Origin: Prillingera fragicola
Taxonomy: Eukaryota > Basidiomycota > Tremellomycetes > Trichosporonales > Trichosporonaceae
Length of the DNA stretch: 64,000 bases
Assembly: GCA_002335605.1 (NCBI GenBank)
Contig: BEDY01000001.1
Coordinates: 1,550,001 to 1,614,000 of the forward strand
Direction of reading: 5' to 3'
Part shown: piece by piece, positions 30,571 to 37,773 of the stretch
Position numbering within the stretch: position 1 is the stretch's first letter
Layout of the letters: every line of letters starts with the position of its first letter
Notes under the pieces: generated by a model
What the model was told of the DNA's origin: nothing
What the model saw: only the letters and a program-made list of their open reading frames with translations
The model's database searches: none
Program-made: the position numbers and the translations under genes

Positions 30571-31104
30571 ATGCCGACCCTCAAGTTTTGTGGAGAATGG
30601 TTAGTTACCTAAAGAACTCCTCCTGGACCAGCGCTGACATCTTGCAGCAACAACCTCTTGTATCCTCGCGTCAGTAGACACAATTAACGCTGTCCTCTGC
30701 TGTTGCTGACCAATGCCCAGTCGGATAACAACTCCAAGGTGCTTCTCTACCAGTGCCGCAACTGCAACTATGCCGAGAATGCCTTGCCAGAGGCTGGATG
30801 GGCACCTTGCGTGTACAAGAATGATCTGTTGACAGTTGCTAGGTAAGCAACCTTCTCTCAACATCTCTGGCCGTAATCTGACCATTGCAGGGAGCAACCA
30901 GGCGAGACAAAGGACCTGGAAACGGACCCAACGTTGCAACGATCAAATATCCAGTGTCCCATCTGCTTCAAGAACGGTGCCGTCTTCTACCAAGACCAGG
31001 CAAAGCGCTTGACCACCAACATGACCCTCTTCTTCTACTGCGTCCACTGCAAGCACCTCTTCCGCGACCCCAAGGTCAAGACCCGCACGAAAACCTTGTC
31101 ATAA
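30571..31104 (+). CDS. RPB9: RNA polymerase II subunit Rpb9
   Basis: Exons 30571-30599, 30648-30669, 30721-30842, 30891-31104 (387 nt, 128 residues). The N-terminal zinc ribbon reads FCGECNN ... YQCRNCNY and the C-terminal TFIIS-like ribbon CPICFKNG ... FYCVHCKHLF, each with two CxxC pairs. Both halves, and the linker AGWAPCVYKNDLLTVAREQPGETKD (in two parts across intron 3), match eukaryotic Rpb9 closely. The subunit sits on the Pol II jaw and supports transcript proofreading and elongation. The first two exons are tiny (29 and 22 nt), and introns 1 and 2 use the less usual donors GTTAGT and GTCAGT. It ends 176 bp from the stop of the convergent ABC-COX10 gene. Confidence 0.96.
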
Positions 31105-31280: not shown

Positions 31281-34200
31281 CTAGGCCTTGTGCGGTTGCA
31301 GCACGCGACCACGTTCCTCCTCAATGCGGAGAATCTCCGTCTTCCCTTCATCACTGTCCTCCCACTTCTTCTCCTTTGTCACCCAGGACGAGAGATTCTT
31401 GTGGATGAGCATCAAGCCAAGCACTGCAGGAAGGTACCACAGACTGACGAAGAACACTCGCTTGGCAGTGGTCTCGTTTGTTCGTCGCCAAAAGTCGTAC
31501 GCGCTGCGAACGAATATAGCGTTGGGCACTGCCGAGGTGAGGGCAAATGACCAGTCAACGCAACCCGAGAGGGGCGCCATGATTGCGCAGATGGGAACAA
31601 GCAGCAACGCATGCCTCAGCGACACCAGTGCGTTGAGCCGCGGAGACAGCACCGAGAGCATAGGATAACCGGACAAAGCGTAGTAGGGGCGGATCATGTG
31701 GGAGAGAGCGTTGAAGTGAGGAAACTGCCACGAGAAGAGTAGCACGGCAAGCGTCCAGGCAGTAAGAGGGTTGGGAAGATCCGGAAGGCTCTCGAGCAAA
31801 GGCCAGTGCAGGAGCAGAGGCTGCTCTGCGGTTGGCAACAGAGAGCCGCCGGTTGCAGTCCAGCCCATCAAAGGGGTAATGCCGCCCACGACAGCGCCCA
31901 CCCAGGTGTTGGAGACGCTGAAACGCTTCATTGGAGTGTAAACGCCAGCGTAGAGCAACAGGTTACCGATGCCAAGGAGTGCTGTGGTGGGGTTACAGCC
32001 AAACCAAAGGATGGTGCCTCCCAGAGCGGTGCAGGCAGTACCAAAGGCAGCGGCATGAAACGGAGTAACACGACGAGCGACGAGAGGCCTTACACGTGTG
32101 CGTGGAGTCTGGGCGTCAAGAGGCACCTCCATGATCTGGTTGAATGTGTTGGCAGCGGCCGAGGTCAGGAAAGTGCCCGCCGTGAGGGCCAAAAGGACGG
32201 GCAGTGACAGTGGGAGGGGCGAGAGCGCAAAGCCAGTGGTCGCAGTGAGGGTCATGAGAATGGAAAGGTTCCGCTTGGACAGCTGCGAGTAAATGGTGAT
32301 GAGGCGACGAGGGTTCAAGTCAGGAAGAGGCTTGTACGCTGTCAACGGCGCAGCTGGTGCTGGTGGAACAGGTAGGTCGAGGTCCGCGAGAGGAACGGCG
32401 GGGGCATTTGCGGCCTTCCACACTGTGGAAAACTCTTTGGGAGGTTGAGGAACAGTAGGCGCAGCGTGGCCAGAGAAGCGGCGGGCGCTGGTGTGAGCGT
32501 AGCGACGCTGGGTGATGACAGGAGAGGCGCGAATCGCGGCAGCAGAGTTGACGGTAATGGGGGCCGGGTCCGATTTGGTCGTGGACTCGGCAGGCTTGGT
32601 CTCCTCTGGAGTGTCCTCCTCAGCAGCCTCCCCAATCGTAGCCATTTGGCCCTGAACCATTTTCCTGAAGCGACCATGAGGCCGTGTGATAAGGTCATCG
32701 TAAGACCCATCTTCAGCAACTTGGCCGCCTTCCAGGTACACAACGCGGTCCGCCTGTGCAATGGAGCTCAAACGGTGGGCGATCAAGATGACGGTGATTT
32801 CGGAGTCGTTGAAGAGAGAGTCAAGGGCCGCGTTCACGGCGCGCTCAGACTCTGAGTCGAGAGCACTCGTGGCTTCATCCATCAACAACACCGAGGGACG
32901 TCCAACCAAAGCACGGGCGATTGCAATGCGCTGGCGCTGACCGCCAGAGAGACTCGCCTTCGTAATGACAGTCTCGTAACCCTCGGGCAGGCGCTCAATA
33001 AAGTCACAGTGCGCAACATCGGCAGCACGCTTCACGTCGTCCATGGTAGCGTTGGCGTGACCGTACTTGATATTGTCCCCAATAGTTCCTCCAAAGAGAA
33101 TGGGGTCCTGGGGGACGTAACCGATGCGGGCACGCCAAGACTCGGGCTCCAGCTCGCGAATGTCCTTGTTGCCAAAGAGCACCTGACCATGGGTTGGGTC
33201 GTAGAAACGCAAAAGTAGGAGCTGAACGGAGCTCTTGCCGCTACCACTGCCTCCAACAAGTGCCACCTGCTCACCCTGGTCGATGCGCAGGTTGACACCA
33301 TTCAGGACCTTGACGTCAGGACGCGAAGGATAGGCGAACGCAACGTCACGGAGCTCGATGGCGGCATGATCAGACTTGGGGACGGGAGCACCAATTGACA
33401 AAGGCACTGGCGACGGAAGAGCGTGGAGTGAAATGATACGCTGAGACGCACCGACACCGCGCATCAAACCTGTGAAGAAGGTCGCAAGAGCTGTCGTCAG
33501 CTAGGATACTCTCAGGGTTACCTACTGTTGAGACTCCATTCAATCCAGTTGACGTAAATGAGCGAAGTAGTCATGTCACCAACGGAAATCTCGCCACGCT
33601 TAACCAACACACCGCCGTATATCAACAGGCCGATCATGGCGAGGTCACCGGCAACTTCGTTTGCTCCTTGGAACACACCATTTGCGTACGTCTCTTTGCG
33701 CTGAAGGTTGAATACGCTTGCAACACGCCCAGCAAAAAGAGCTCGCTCAGCTGGTTGCGTGTTGGACGCCGTGACAGTGCGGTGCGCAGAGAGACGTTCC
33801 TCAGCGAGTTTACTCATGTTACCAAGTGCCTCTTGAGTCTTGAGCGACAGAGACCGAATGTAGCGACCATAGAAGTAAGAGGCGACTGAGATGGGCGGGA
33901 AAAGGAGGAGCATGACCGTACAGAGCTTGGGCGAGATGAGGTACATCGCACCAACTCCGACACCGGCGCCGAGAACAGCCTTAAGACCTTCGCCGAGATT
34001 CTCACTCAAACTCTGTCCGACAATGGACGAGTCCTGGCCGAGGCGAGACAGGGCGTCTCCCACTCCGGAAGTCTCAATGTGCGATGGAGGCAGGTGAAGG
34101 TACTGGCGGTAGGTCTTGTTTCGGATCTGAGCCACAGTACGCTGACCAGCTAGCCGGAGAGCAATGCTGCGACAGGAATTGGCGAGGGCTCCAAGTAGAA

Positions 34201-34741
34201 GAAAACCAGCGAGTGCAGCCGCAGCTTGTTCCAACGGCAAGCCGAAAAGGAGCGTTTCCTGTGAGCCTGGGGCGAAAAAGTCGATAATGCGTCCAATAAT
34301 ATACGGGACGGAGAGGCTGACTCCGGTCGAGACGACGAGCATGGAGACACCAAAGGTGAGGAGGCGCCATTGAGGCTTGGCGAGCATTATGAGCTTCGTG
34401 ACCGATGCCTGCTCGCCAGGTGGCGTCTTTGGAGAGACAGTAGTGATGGGCATCACGCTACCGGCAGTTGCATCCAACACTTTGCCCTCGCCTTGAGCCT
34501 TTGTGGACTCATGACGAACCGCTGTAGCGGAACGTCTTGTTCGAAGACTGGAGGTAATCTCAGGTCGAACCAGAAGCGAAGAAAATGACCGAACATTGCT
34601 GATTCCACTCGGTACCAATGTGGACACACGAAGGTGCCCAAGAGGAGTACATGGCTGCCAGAGGCCGGCGAGGCGCACGCTCGGAACCACCCGCGAGGGA
34701 CAAAGGCGCGGGAAGAGCGCGGCCGCGCCTCGGTGTGCCAT
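31281..34741 (-). CDS. MDL1-COX10: Natural fusion: mitochondrial half-size ABC transporter (MDL1/ABCB10-like) + heme O synthase COX10
   Basis: Exons 34741-33526 and 33490-31281 (36-base gap, GTAGGT donor) give one 1141-residue frame. Start MAHRGAAALFP opens a basic presequence of about 95 residues. A six-helix ABC exporter domain follows (about 140-420), then the nucleotide-binding domain: Walker A GGSGSGKSS (about 485), LSGGQRQRIAIARAL (about 584), LLMDEATSALD and the IAHR H-loop, ending near KMVQGQ (683). An acidic/Thr-rich linker carries the basic segment RRYAHTSARRFS (about 735). From about 800 the frame is a complete UbiA-type farnesyltransferase: AANTFNQIMEVPLDAQ, RTRVRPLV, YTPMKRFSVSNTWVGA, WQFPHFNALSHMI, WYLPAVLGLMLIHK. 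No stop, intron or frame change separates the halves. COX10 makes heme O for complex IV; ABCB10-type exporters are tied to heme and oxidative stress. A single bifunctional protein, internal cleavage, or internal initiation (Met683/688) are all possible. Confidence 0.9.
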
Positions 34742-35426
34742 GGCGCGGCTATGAACAACAAGGAGGGTCAGAGGGACGGCGACTCGGCGGCGGGGGGCCT
34801 TTATCGCTCGACAGGTTTGGCGTCGGCAATGGAGATGAGTAAAACGAGACACCCAGAGTAAAGTCGGTCGGCAAGGAGGAACCATTGGCGCCGACGGAGA
34901 ACATGCGCGGGTCCGTGTGGTCTTCGAATTGTGACGAGACCCTGATAAGGTGTAACTAATGACACGTCATAGGGGCAAGAGTATGATTAATTCATTTTGA
35001 TTCCGGCATTGTTTGTTGACGCGACTTTCTTTTGAATGATGACCTCAAGGGTCTATCACGTGGGGGGGCGCCAACAGACACCATATTCCCTACCCTCGCA
35101 CCATACCACAGGACAGGACGCCAACACGAACTGCAGAACGCTCATGACCATTCACGGACGCGACGAGTCTACTCTTCCTCTATCCGCATCGCACTCTCCA
35201 CAGCTAGCTCGCAGTCTCGTGTTCATCAGCGTCAAGTCCAACACTGCACGCGATCACCGCCAAACATTCAGCCTCCGCCCAGCCCACCACCTTTGTTTCA
35301 CCCAAATCCTCACCCGAGCCATCGCGCAGTCGCGTGCGCGTGTAGCCGGCTGGTGAGGGTCAACGCCATTCAGCACATTCTCTCTCTCAGAGTGCTTTGT
35401 CGTTTACTTCTATTCACTCCCTCACA
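34742..35426. promoter_or_regulatory. Divergent promoter region, ABC-COX10 and GATA factor
   Basis: 685 bp between outward-facing starts. It contains a GATAAG core at about 34944-34949 and an ACGTCA half-site at about 34964-34969, and a CT-rich stretch just before the GATA-factor ATG. The GATA core next to a GATA-factor gene could mean autoregulation, but single hexamers are common by chance. Confidence 0.4.
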
Positions 35427-37773
35427 ATGGCTGTGCCTTTGGAGCCGAACCGCATCCATTCGCTACCTGGTAAGTCTGCGGTCGCGGTCCGCACGGTGAC
35501 CAAGCGCTGACCACGCATCCAGTGCAAGTATCATATCATCTCCAAGCCTCCTCCCAGACGTTTTCTGCTCTCTTTCCCACTCCCCAGCAGGTCTACGTTC
35601 ACCCAAACGCTGGATCCTCACAAGTCGACGGGCGCGACGAGGCATGGGGTGCGATCCACTTGAAGACGGTTGTGCAAGGAATTCTTATGGCAAGGTGGGT
35701 TATCATCACTCTTATAGCGCGAGCTTCTCTGACTGGGTCAGTCCCGAACTGCATCCATCGCATCCCGGAACTCCAGACTTGTCTCTCTACGTCCTAGACC
35801 CACGACAAACATTCCTCCGTCGCTCTCGCTCGTCTGCACCACTTTCTCACCCTCGGGGAGCCGCGAATGGTGGAGCTTCGAATGAGGTCTGGACAGGGAA
35901 GGGCCTCGTGACATGGGCGCTTCAGGAGCCAGGAGAGGGCAAAAACCTCATTACCGGTAGACTGGTGCGGCGTCCAGAGTTTGTCGGGGTCGAATCGCCT
36001 GCTGCAGGCATGTCTGCCCTCGAGGCACTGGCGGCGTCCAACTCGTCCGATGCTCATGCGGCCTGGGGTATCGAAGTTTCGGTCGGTCTCAAGTCAGGCT
36101 TGTCAGGATCTCTCACCTACCCTGGTCCTCTGCACCATACCGTCGAGAAGGGCTTGTTTGTGGATTCATACGCAGCGCGTGAGCAGCCTACGTCGACGCC
36201 AAGTGTGGTACCCGCCCATTCCTCTCCAACTGTTGCAGGTCCTTCCTCTACGCCCAAGGGATCGACCTTCGCCACCGCCTCCTCCGCCAGCAAAGCCGCT
36301 CCCGCCAAGCCCGCGCCCCGTGGTCGCCCCAGGAAGAATCGCCAGCCTGCCGTCACCGCGCAGCCACTCAAGAGCTCAGATTTGAACCGCCTCCCCTCCT
36401 CGTCAGCCTCGATCAGAGAATCGGACGACTCGCTGGATACCCAGGATGAGTCCTACACCAAAGAGATTCACCGCCTCCTTGCCAAACCCGAGTTCCTCAA
36501 CGTGCTGGAGAAGATTACAGGTGTCCAGCTCAACAACGCGATGGGAAAGCGTCCGGCTGCTGTTCCCCAACGCCACGAAGAAGTTCCTTCGAAGCGGCCA
36601 CGCGTCGCTCGCAGCAAGGTCGGAGCCGCCAGCTCTGATCGCCTCTCCGAAGCAGAAGAGTACAAGTGCTCCAACTGCGGCACTACGAAGAGCTCTGTCT
36701 GGCGCACGAAGACCGAAGACGGCCACGCCGTTCGGGTCTGCAATGCCTGCGGCCTCTACTTCAACAAGACCCGCATGATGCGCCCTTCAACAATGTGGAC
36801 CGGTGTCGATGACAACAGTGCTGGCCGCGCCAACCGCCTGGATAAGGCCGCTGGAGGTGGAGGCTTTAAGCGTACCCTCACGATGGTTGCTGAGAAAGAC
36901 GCACGACGCATCGCTACTCAGCGAGCCACGCGCACCAAGACGGCCGCCATGACTTCGCCTCCGCGCCCCTCGGTTTCAATGGGTAAGAGTGTGCGCAACA
37001 CTCGTTTCTCGGGACCAACCACTGTGGCCGCAAGCTCACCAGGTGGATGGGCGAAGGACCCATCATCGGCCCCGGCAGACCAACCATTGGCTCCCACCTC
37101 GTCAGGCGCCGCTCCCCCCTCTGGACGCAATACTGTTCGCAACGAATCCATGCCCAGCCTTGCCATGCCTCTCAGCGATGACAATACTTCTTCGGCTGCT
37201 ATCGCCAATGATGGTTGGAATGCCGATCTCTCAGCATTCTTCAACGTTGATGGCTTCGCAATGACAAGTGGAGGCGGTGCTCCTCGAGAATCTCCGGCCC
37301 CACGCCAGTCAGTGTCCGAGATCCAAGGTGTTTCTTCGATTCTCCGCAACGCCAATGAGAGAGCAGATGACGGATTCGACCGAGTGGCAGCCAGCTCTGA
37401 GGATGACGTCTTTTCTCAGCTGTTCCAGCGTACCTCGTCGGCCAACTTTGACGACTCTCCGGCCCCATTCGACTTTTCTCAACTGCCTCCCAGCTCGCCA
37501 CCATCGCTGCCAAGCAACCTGCCGCACTCGGCCCTGCTGCTGTCCAGCCCTTCTGGCAGTCCACTCGACGTCAGTCCCCATGCCGATAGCGAGCATGGCG
37601 GACCTCCCCAGCAATCCGGTCTTCGCCACTCCATTACGCTGAACGGTGATGAAACGTTCGATAACGGCAATGGCAATGCCTCTGATCTCCAGGATCTCCT
37701 GTCCAAACTTCCCGGCGTCGGCGATGACCTGCTGGCCCTCCTCAACGCGTTTCCCGCAGCGGCTGCTGTGTGA
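35427..37773 (+). CDS. GATA-type zinc finger transcription factor
   Basis: Exons 35427-35469, 35523-35694, 35742-37773 (2247 nt, 748 residues). The first exon begins MAVPLEPNRIHSLP; phases 1 and 2 close exactly. An N-terminal folded-looking region of about 200 residues (with VWTGKGLVTWALQEPGEGKN) is followed by an Ala/Pro/Lys-rich stretch with an AT-hook-like PRGRPRKN. One GATA finger lies at residues 381-408: CSNC-x20-CNAC, then GLYFNKTRMMRP. The loop is 20 residues, longer than the 17-18 of classical GATA factors, as in many fungal WC-2/Sre1-independent members. A Ser-rich tail with acidic/hydrophobic patches (DLLALLNAFP) may activate transcription. The regulon cannot be inferred; nitrogen, iron and light GATA factors would all look similar here. 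Confidence 0.88.

Follow-up and report, generated by a model that had tools for sequence, protein, structure and literature searches.

In Schizosaccharomyces pombe, Etp1 joins Cox15 to a ferredoxin and is a fusion within the heme A pathway. A passage of a review mentions a Yah1-Arh1 fusion in S. pombe instead (PMC7140478). Etp1 is described as a composite mitochondrial precursor in a passage of published work that also covers Saccharomyces cerevisiae Arg5,6, in which two mitochondrial enzymes are made as one precursor and internal cutting by MPP has been shown (PMC8847149). The same passage reports that internal targeting-like sequences and MPP sites were found in silico in Etp1, Rsm22-Cox11 and Atp25 (PMC8847149). 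According to an excerpt of a second paper, S. pombe Rsm22-Cox11, a fungal fusion with a cytochrome oxidase assembly factor, is cut after import (PMC12375894). A bacterial CtaA-CtaB frame (L071) is comparable in that a heme O synthase is joined to another heme A pathway protein.

In the genome of Prillingera fragicola, it was confirmed that an ABC exporter and a heme O synthase (COX10) are joined in one frame in the DNA. Unlike Arg5,6, this fusion consists of two polytopic membrane halves, and its cutting is predicted. Rsm22-Cox11 has other partners, and the freed Rsm22 is a matrix protein, whereas Etp1 is without an exporter, and the partner in CtaA-CtaB is a heme A synthase rather than an ABC exporter. 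Among half-size exporters of known structure, ABCB10 is the closest relative of the exporter half; however, ABCB10 and Mdl1 are unfused, and the biliverdin pocket is kept only in part in the exporter half here. A fusion of an ABC exporter with COX10 was not found in the titles or shown abstracts of open-licence papers. Whatever its cargo, the gene would encode a tandem precursor built from two polytopic membrane proteins.

Gene structure and the two halves

The window, i.e. the whole stretch of 64,000 nucleotides that was analysed, has a GC content of 0.570 and belongs to an assembly of 20,248,525 bases. The fusion gene runs on the minus strand from 34741 to 31281 and, after removal of a predicted 35-nt intron, comprises 1141 codons plus a stop, with the start ATG at 34741 and the stop TAG at 31283-31281 (Table 1). 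A single frame of 1141 codons with one small intron had been proposed in the sequence-only reading, and both its coordinates and its length were correct, the intron being predicted. A 56-nt version of the intron, which uses a second acceptor (to 33470) and also keeps the frame, was rejected in favour of the 35-nt version because it would delete residues that align with human ABCB10 and with the unfused paralog. Another in-frame ATG lies upstream of the chosen start, at 34885, and its start context was judged to be poorer than that of the ATG at 34741.

Table 1. Features of the exporter-COX10 fusion gene, with positions in the window
Feature	Position	Strand	Content or basis
Exon 1	33526..34741	-	ATG (gccATGG context) to middle of membrane domain; residues 1-405 plus one base
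Predicted intron, 35 nt (GTAGGT...ACAG)	33491..33525	-	Kept residues TLATFFTG align with ABCB10 and the unfused paralog
Exon 2	31281..33490	-	End of membrane domain, nucleotide-binding domain, linker, COX10, stop TAG
Predicted N-terminal presequence region, residues 1-90	34472..34741	-	0 D/E in residues 1-60; R-3 motif RSFS at 51
Exporter membrane domain, residues ~110-440 (intron inside)	33387..34414	-	Pfam ABC_membrane 130-398; ABCB10 alignment
Nucleotide-binding domain, residues 441-684	32655..33386	-	Walker A 485, LSGGQ 586, Walker B 607, H-loop 643
Acidic exporter tail, residues 685-713	32568..32654	-	8 D/E, 2 K/R
Presequence-like stretch, residues 714-757	32436..32567	-	0 D/E, 6 K/R; R-3 motifs RRYA (734), RRFS (742)
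COX10 / heme O synthase core, residues 801-1105	31392..32306	-	TIGR01473, UbiA match, UbiA fold

Three Pfam families scored over their cut-offs in the predicted protein, namely ABC_membrane at residues 130-398 (169.4 bits), ABC_tran at 468-614 (105.9) and UbiA at 820-1089 (173.9), and a fourth listed family, SMC_N, was under its cut-off. The proposed order of a complete half-size exporter followed by a UbiA-type COX10 was borne out. At the level of sequence, two separately recognisable domains that share one frame make strong evidence for the fusion.

The gene has neighbours on both sides. The convergent one, at 30571-31104 on the plus strand and spliced by eye, resembles an RNA polymerase II RPB9/TFIIS-type zinc protein, with a weak match under the cut-off (26 bits) as its sole NCBIfam match; its stop codon and that of COX10 lie 176 bases apart. 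The divergent one, at 35644-37773 on the plus strand, is an open frame with a GATA-type zinc finger (C-x2-C-x20-C-x2-C), a family named by reading.

Family model and fold both place the COX10 half with the heme O synthases. The NCBIfam heme O synthase equivalog TIGR01473 scored 220.1 bits, over its cut-off of 210.3, and 226 in the genome search, in which neighbours in frame were included. An AlphaFold2 model of residues 714-1141, built with three sequences, had a mean pLDDT of 66.4. The 14 best PDB matches of this model were UbiA homologues or relatives (we take 7bpu, 6m31 and 8j8j/8j8k to be UbiA kin), and 11 matches had E<=0.001.

The COX10 half was also compared with 46 bacterial CtaB rows, which represent 45 loci (one of them present twice) of one bacterial phylum; two of the rows are under the TIGR01473 cut-off, and one had masked letters dropped. 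The result showed that N856, E860, D864, R869, R873, K927, W993, Q994 and H997 match columns that are invariant in these rows. Where a column is conserved in at least 42 of the 46 rows, the COX10 half matches at 31/40; the 9 mismatches include three positions (867, 942 and 944) that are invariant in the bacterial rows. Residue 1008, which immediately precedes the invariant Tyr in the second motif, is Tyr here and D (40/46), E (4/46) or Q (2/46) in the bacterial rows.

The exporter half is a complete half exporter, with one membrane domain and one nucleotide-binding domain that carries Walker A, signature, Walker B and H-loop, and it is predicted to be mitochondrial. Among half-size exporters of known structure, human ABCB10 was nearest (426.7 bits, versus 285.7 for ABCB8). 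Full-size ABCB1-type proteins outscored ABCB10 in the search with the whole half, partly through the summing of two stretches, and with the membrane domain alone ABCB10 ranked first (194.9), followed by the family of ABCB9 (106.5). The proposed ABCB10/MDL1-type identity of the exporter agrees with this rank of ABCB10 as its closest half-size exporter of known structure.

ABCB10 binds biliverdin, and an excerpt of the work reporting this lists the pocket residues and states that six of them are strictly conserved from yeast to human (PMC10090120). The fused half keeps 3/6 of the strictly conserved residues, the changes being R295K, A329S and N407D, compared with 6/6 in an unfused paralog in the same genome; over the whole pocket the counts are 5/17 and 11/17, respectively. 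In the rest of the membrane domain, identity to ABCB10 is 101/292 for the fused half and 134/291 for the paralog. Because the fused membrane domain is more divergent elsewhere too, the change in the pocket may not exceed the background divergence. By alignment, then, the pocket comparison shows divergence of the fused half and not a defined new cargo. Since only three of the six residues are kept, the fused half was classified as ABCB10-type by sequence and not as a biliverdin exporter.

The linker and the fate of the product

In mitochondrial presequences, R-x-[FY] ahead of [SA] is an MPP/Icp55 site. The strict motif R-x-[FY]-[SA] (R-3 motif) occurs three times in the 1141 residues, once in the N-terminal presequence (51) and twice in the linker (734 and 742); with Leu allowed, the protein has five motifs, two of which (296 and 812) lie inside domains. 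Two or more motifs fell in the linker in 22/20000 shuffles of the linker and in 44/20000 shuffles of the whole protein. As a control, 25 distinct ABC loci were drawn from this genome and taken as the longest open stretches in any frame, not all of which need be the ABC frame; 10 motifs were found in 17,962 residues and two motifs within 20 residues in 0/25 loci. In the window itself, 18 open stretches of at least 300 aa (this gene's exons included) held 5 motifs in 10,578 residues.

The linker motifs lie in a stretch without D/E but with 6 K/R (residues 714-757), which directly follows the acidic tail of the exporter with its 8 D/E (685-713). Residues 714-794, the first 81 of the AlphaFold2 model, are without confident structure. 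An amphipathic-helix filter passed 17/1124 windows, with values of 0.36-0.44 for the linker stretch and 0.37-0.52 for other internal stretches; no window of the N-terminal presequence passed, and the filter was considered uninformative because it missed that presequence too. From residues 714-757 we infer that the own presequence of COX10 has likely been retained within the fusion linker.

Because the linker holds a presequence-like stretch with two R-3 motifs, the reading that we favour, and consider fairly probable, is that the gene encodes a tandem precursor that is imported once and then cut by MPP at the retained COX10 presequence into two inner-membrane proteins. The precursor would be imported into mitochondria by its predicted N-terminal presequence, and MPP would cut after Y736 or F744, with predicted products of ~73-74 kDa (exporter) and ~43-44 kDa (COX10). 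The R-3 motif is, however, a simple consensus, which would weigh against cutting, and the presequence-like stretch could be an uncut relic. The interpretation given in the sequence-only reading stands as to the in-frame fusion, the ABCB10 kinship, the heme O synthase and the topology, but not in its lean to a single fused working protein, given the presequence-like stretch and the two processing motifs of the linker. Since the linker keeps these motifs, a cut precursor is at least as likely as an intact protein.

The least certain steps of the tandem precursor model are the last two, i.e. that the join would put the exporter and COX10 in one membrane at matched amounts, and that an exporter whose porphyrin pocket has diverged from that of ABCB10 would serve the heme A pathway. 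It is quite possible, even if we lean against it, that the fusion is functionally neutral, in that two unrelated mitochondrial proteins have come by chance under one promoter and one presequence while the exporter retains a usual Mdl1-like role; such a fusion would be compatible with a cut precursor. Rsm22-Cox11, which pairs a mitoribosome factor with a copper factor, is a precedent in favour. Bacterial gene neighbourhoods offered no usable support for a functional link: the idea of a Rosetta stone was examined at 20 ctaB regions, chosen among the genomes (at least 119) over the TIGR01473 cut-off, and an ABC ATPase motif was present at 3/20 of them versus 0/20 displaced regions of the same contigs, numbers too few to give a reliable difference. 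As described in a passage of a further paper, yeast Mdl1 exports peptides and is on the whole not implicated in iron homeostasis, even though the loss of Atm1 is partly rescued when Mdl1 is overexpressed (PMC8468894). Given this description of Mdl1, a common pathway is not implied by the fusion. Against neutrality, the exporter half is altered at porphyrin-pocket positions that the unfused paralog keeps, which would fit a separate task; this argument is weak because the fused half shows higher divergence throughout its membrane domain.

The main rival of the cut precursor is an intact bifunctional membrane protein of 117 kDa, with COX10 on each protomer and so two synthases per exporter dimer. 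One open frame and a long linker without confident structure in the model are in keeping with such a protein, which we nevertheless regard as unlikely, though by no means negligible, as the linker would lie on the matrix side, where the peptidase is active, and carries a presequence-like stretch with two R-3 motifs.

Whether the linker is coding bears on a further reading, in which there are in practice two genes. The linker comprises 116 codons (residues 685-800) that are stop-free in the fused frame. Codon statistics, for which the gene's own two domain cores served as the training set, gave the linker a mean log-odds of +0.18 in the fused frame. The five remaining frames scored between -0.17 and -0.45, and every one of them has at least one stop. 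Among the three forward frames, residues 685-713 alone scored +0.40 in the fused frame versus -0.71 and -0.47, and residues 661-690 were not discriminated (-0.02 versus +0.01 and -0.82). The linker also stayed open in 305/5000 shuffles, so that an open linker alone is weak evidence. A search of 33000-32250 with a donor/branch/acceptor pattern, by which the accepted intron is found, gave no intron candidate.

A separate COX10, made also or only from its own transcript or internal start, with the open linker incidental or due to a sequence error, would draw on the good start context of M683 (aaaATGG), on a stop that could be masked by a single-base error and on the piece that codon statistics do not distinguish (661-690), but is very improbable, given that the sequence is stop-free from the nucleotide-binding domain to COX10 with no intron candidate, that, of the three forward frames, the fused one alone is coding-like over residues 685-713, that the in-frame ATGs 683 and 688 open onto an acidic stretch unlike a presequence, and that the next in-frame Met (818) is already at the start of the membrane domain.

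Cargo and the link to heme A

The join of the two halves may tie the exporter to the synthesis of heme A, a cofactor needed for respiration. Both this link and the cargo proposed for it are inferences. The boldest form of the idea is that the fused exporter would be a heme O flippase, which would take up heme O from Cox10 at the matrix face and carry it across the inner membrane to Cox15, an enzyme with its active site on the intermembrane-space side, so that the fusion would couple synthesis to export. The topology put forward earlier fits, since a published passage places the active site of Cox10 on the matrix face (PMC7140478). The same review, in the part concerned, says that Cox10 and Cox15 do not interact stably, which counts against a heme O flippase (PMC7140478). 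The description of yeast Mdl1 and the lack of usable support from bacterial neighbourhoods count against it as well. Proteins of different pathways can also be fused, as the analogy with Rsm22-Cox11 suggests, and we regard the flippase as improbable. If true, it would address a gap stated in the literature, for which a gene that links Cox10 with a transporter of the ABCB10 type, known to bind porphyrins, supplies a specific candidate that simple genetics could probe.

Related genes in this genome and in bacteria

The genome was searched exon by exon, and the best candidates only were scored. Within this scope no second COX10 was detected in the assembly. One other UbiA-type place was found, on C2, with 57 bits to the heme O synthase model (cut-off 210.3); it is taken for COQ2, and because it scores below the cut-off, the fused gene is likely the sole COX10 source within this assembly. 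COX15 lies on C4 and is unlinked to the fusion gene.

The unfused ABCB10-like half exporter used as the paralog above lies on C3 (G000:C3:332998-333718; L023/L025). It shares 55% identity with the fused half across 399 residues, and its longest exon gave 360.6 bits to ABCB10. Counting this gene on C3 and the fused copy, the genome has two or more ABCB10-like exporters. An ATM1-like exporter gene, likewise unfused, lies on C13, and a gene on C2 (L015) reads as ABCB6/HMT1-like from its translation.

In bacteria, TIGR01473 was matched in at least 189 of the 199 genomes of one phylum and over its cut-off in at least 119. A screen for fusions, which covered 16 frames of at least 592 aa among the matches listed plus 30 loci, yielded 330 open stretches, of which 46 were similar to COX10, 6 to the exporter and 1 to both. 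The stretch similar to both runs through masked letters and was not counted as a fusion. From the translations seen, the upstream parts of the remaining long frames are taken for non-genic read-through. One locus (L071) holds CtaA-CtaB, i.e. heme A synthase and heme O synthase, in one open frame, as confirmed by Pfam.
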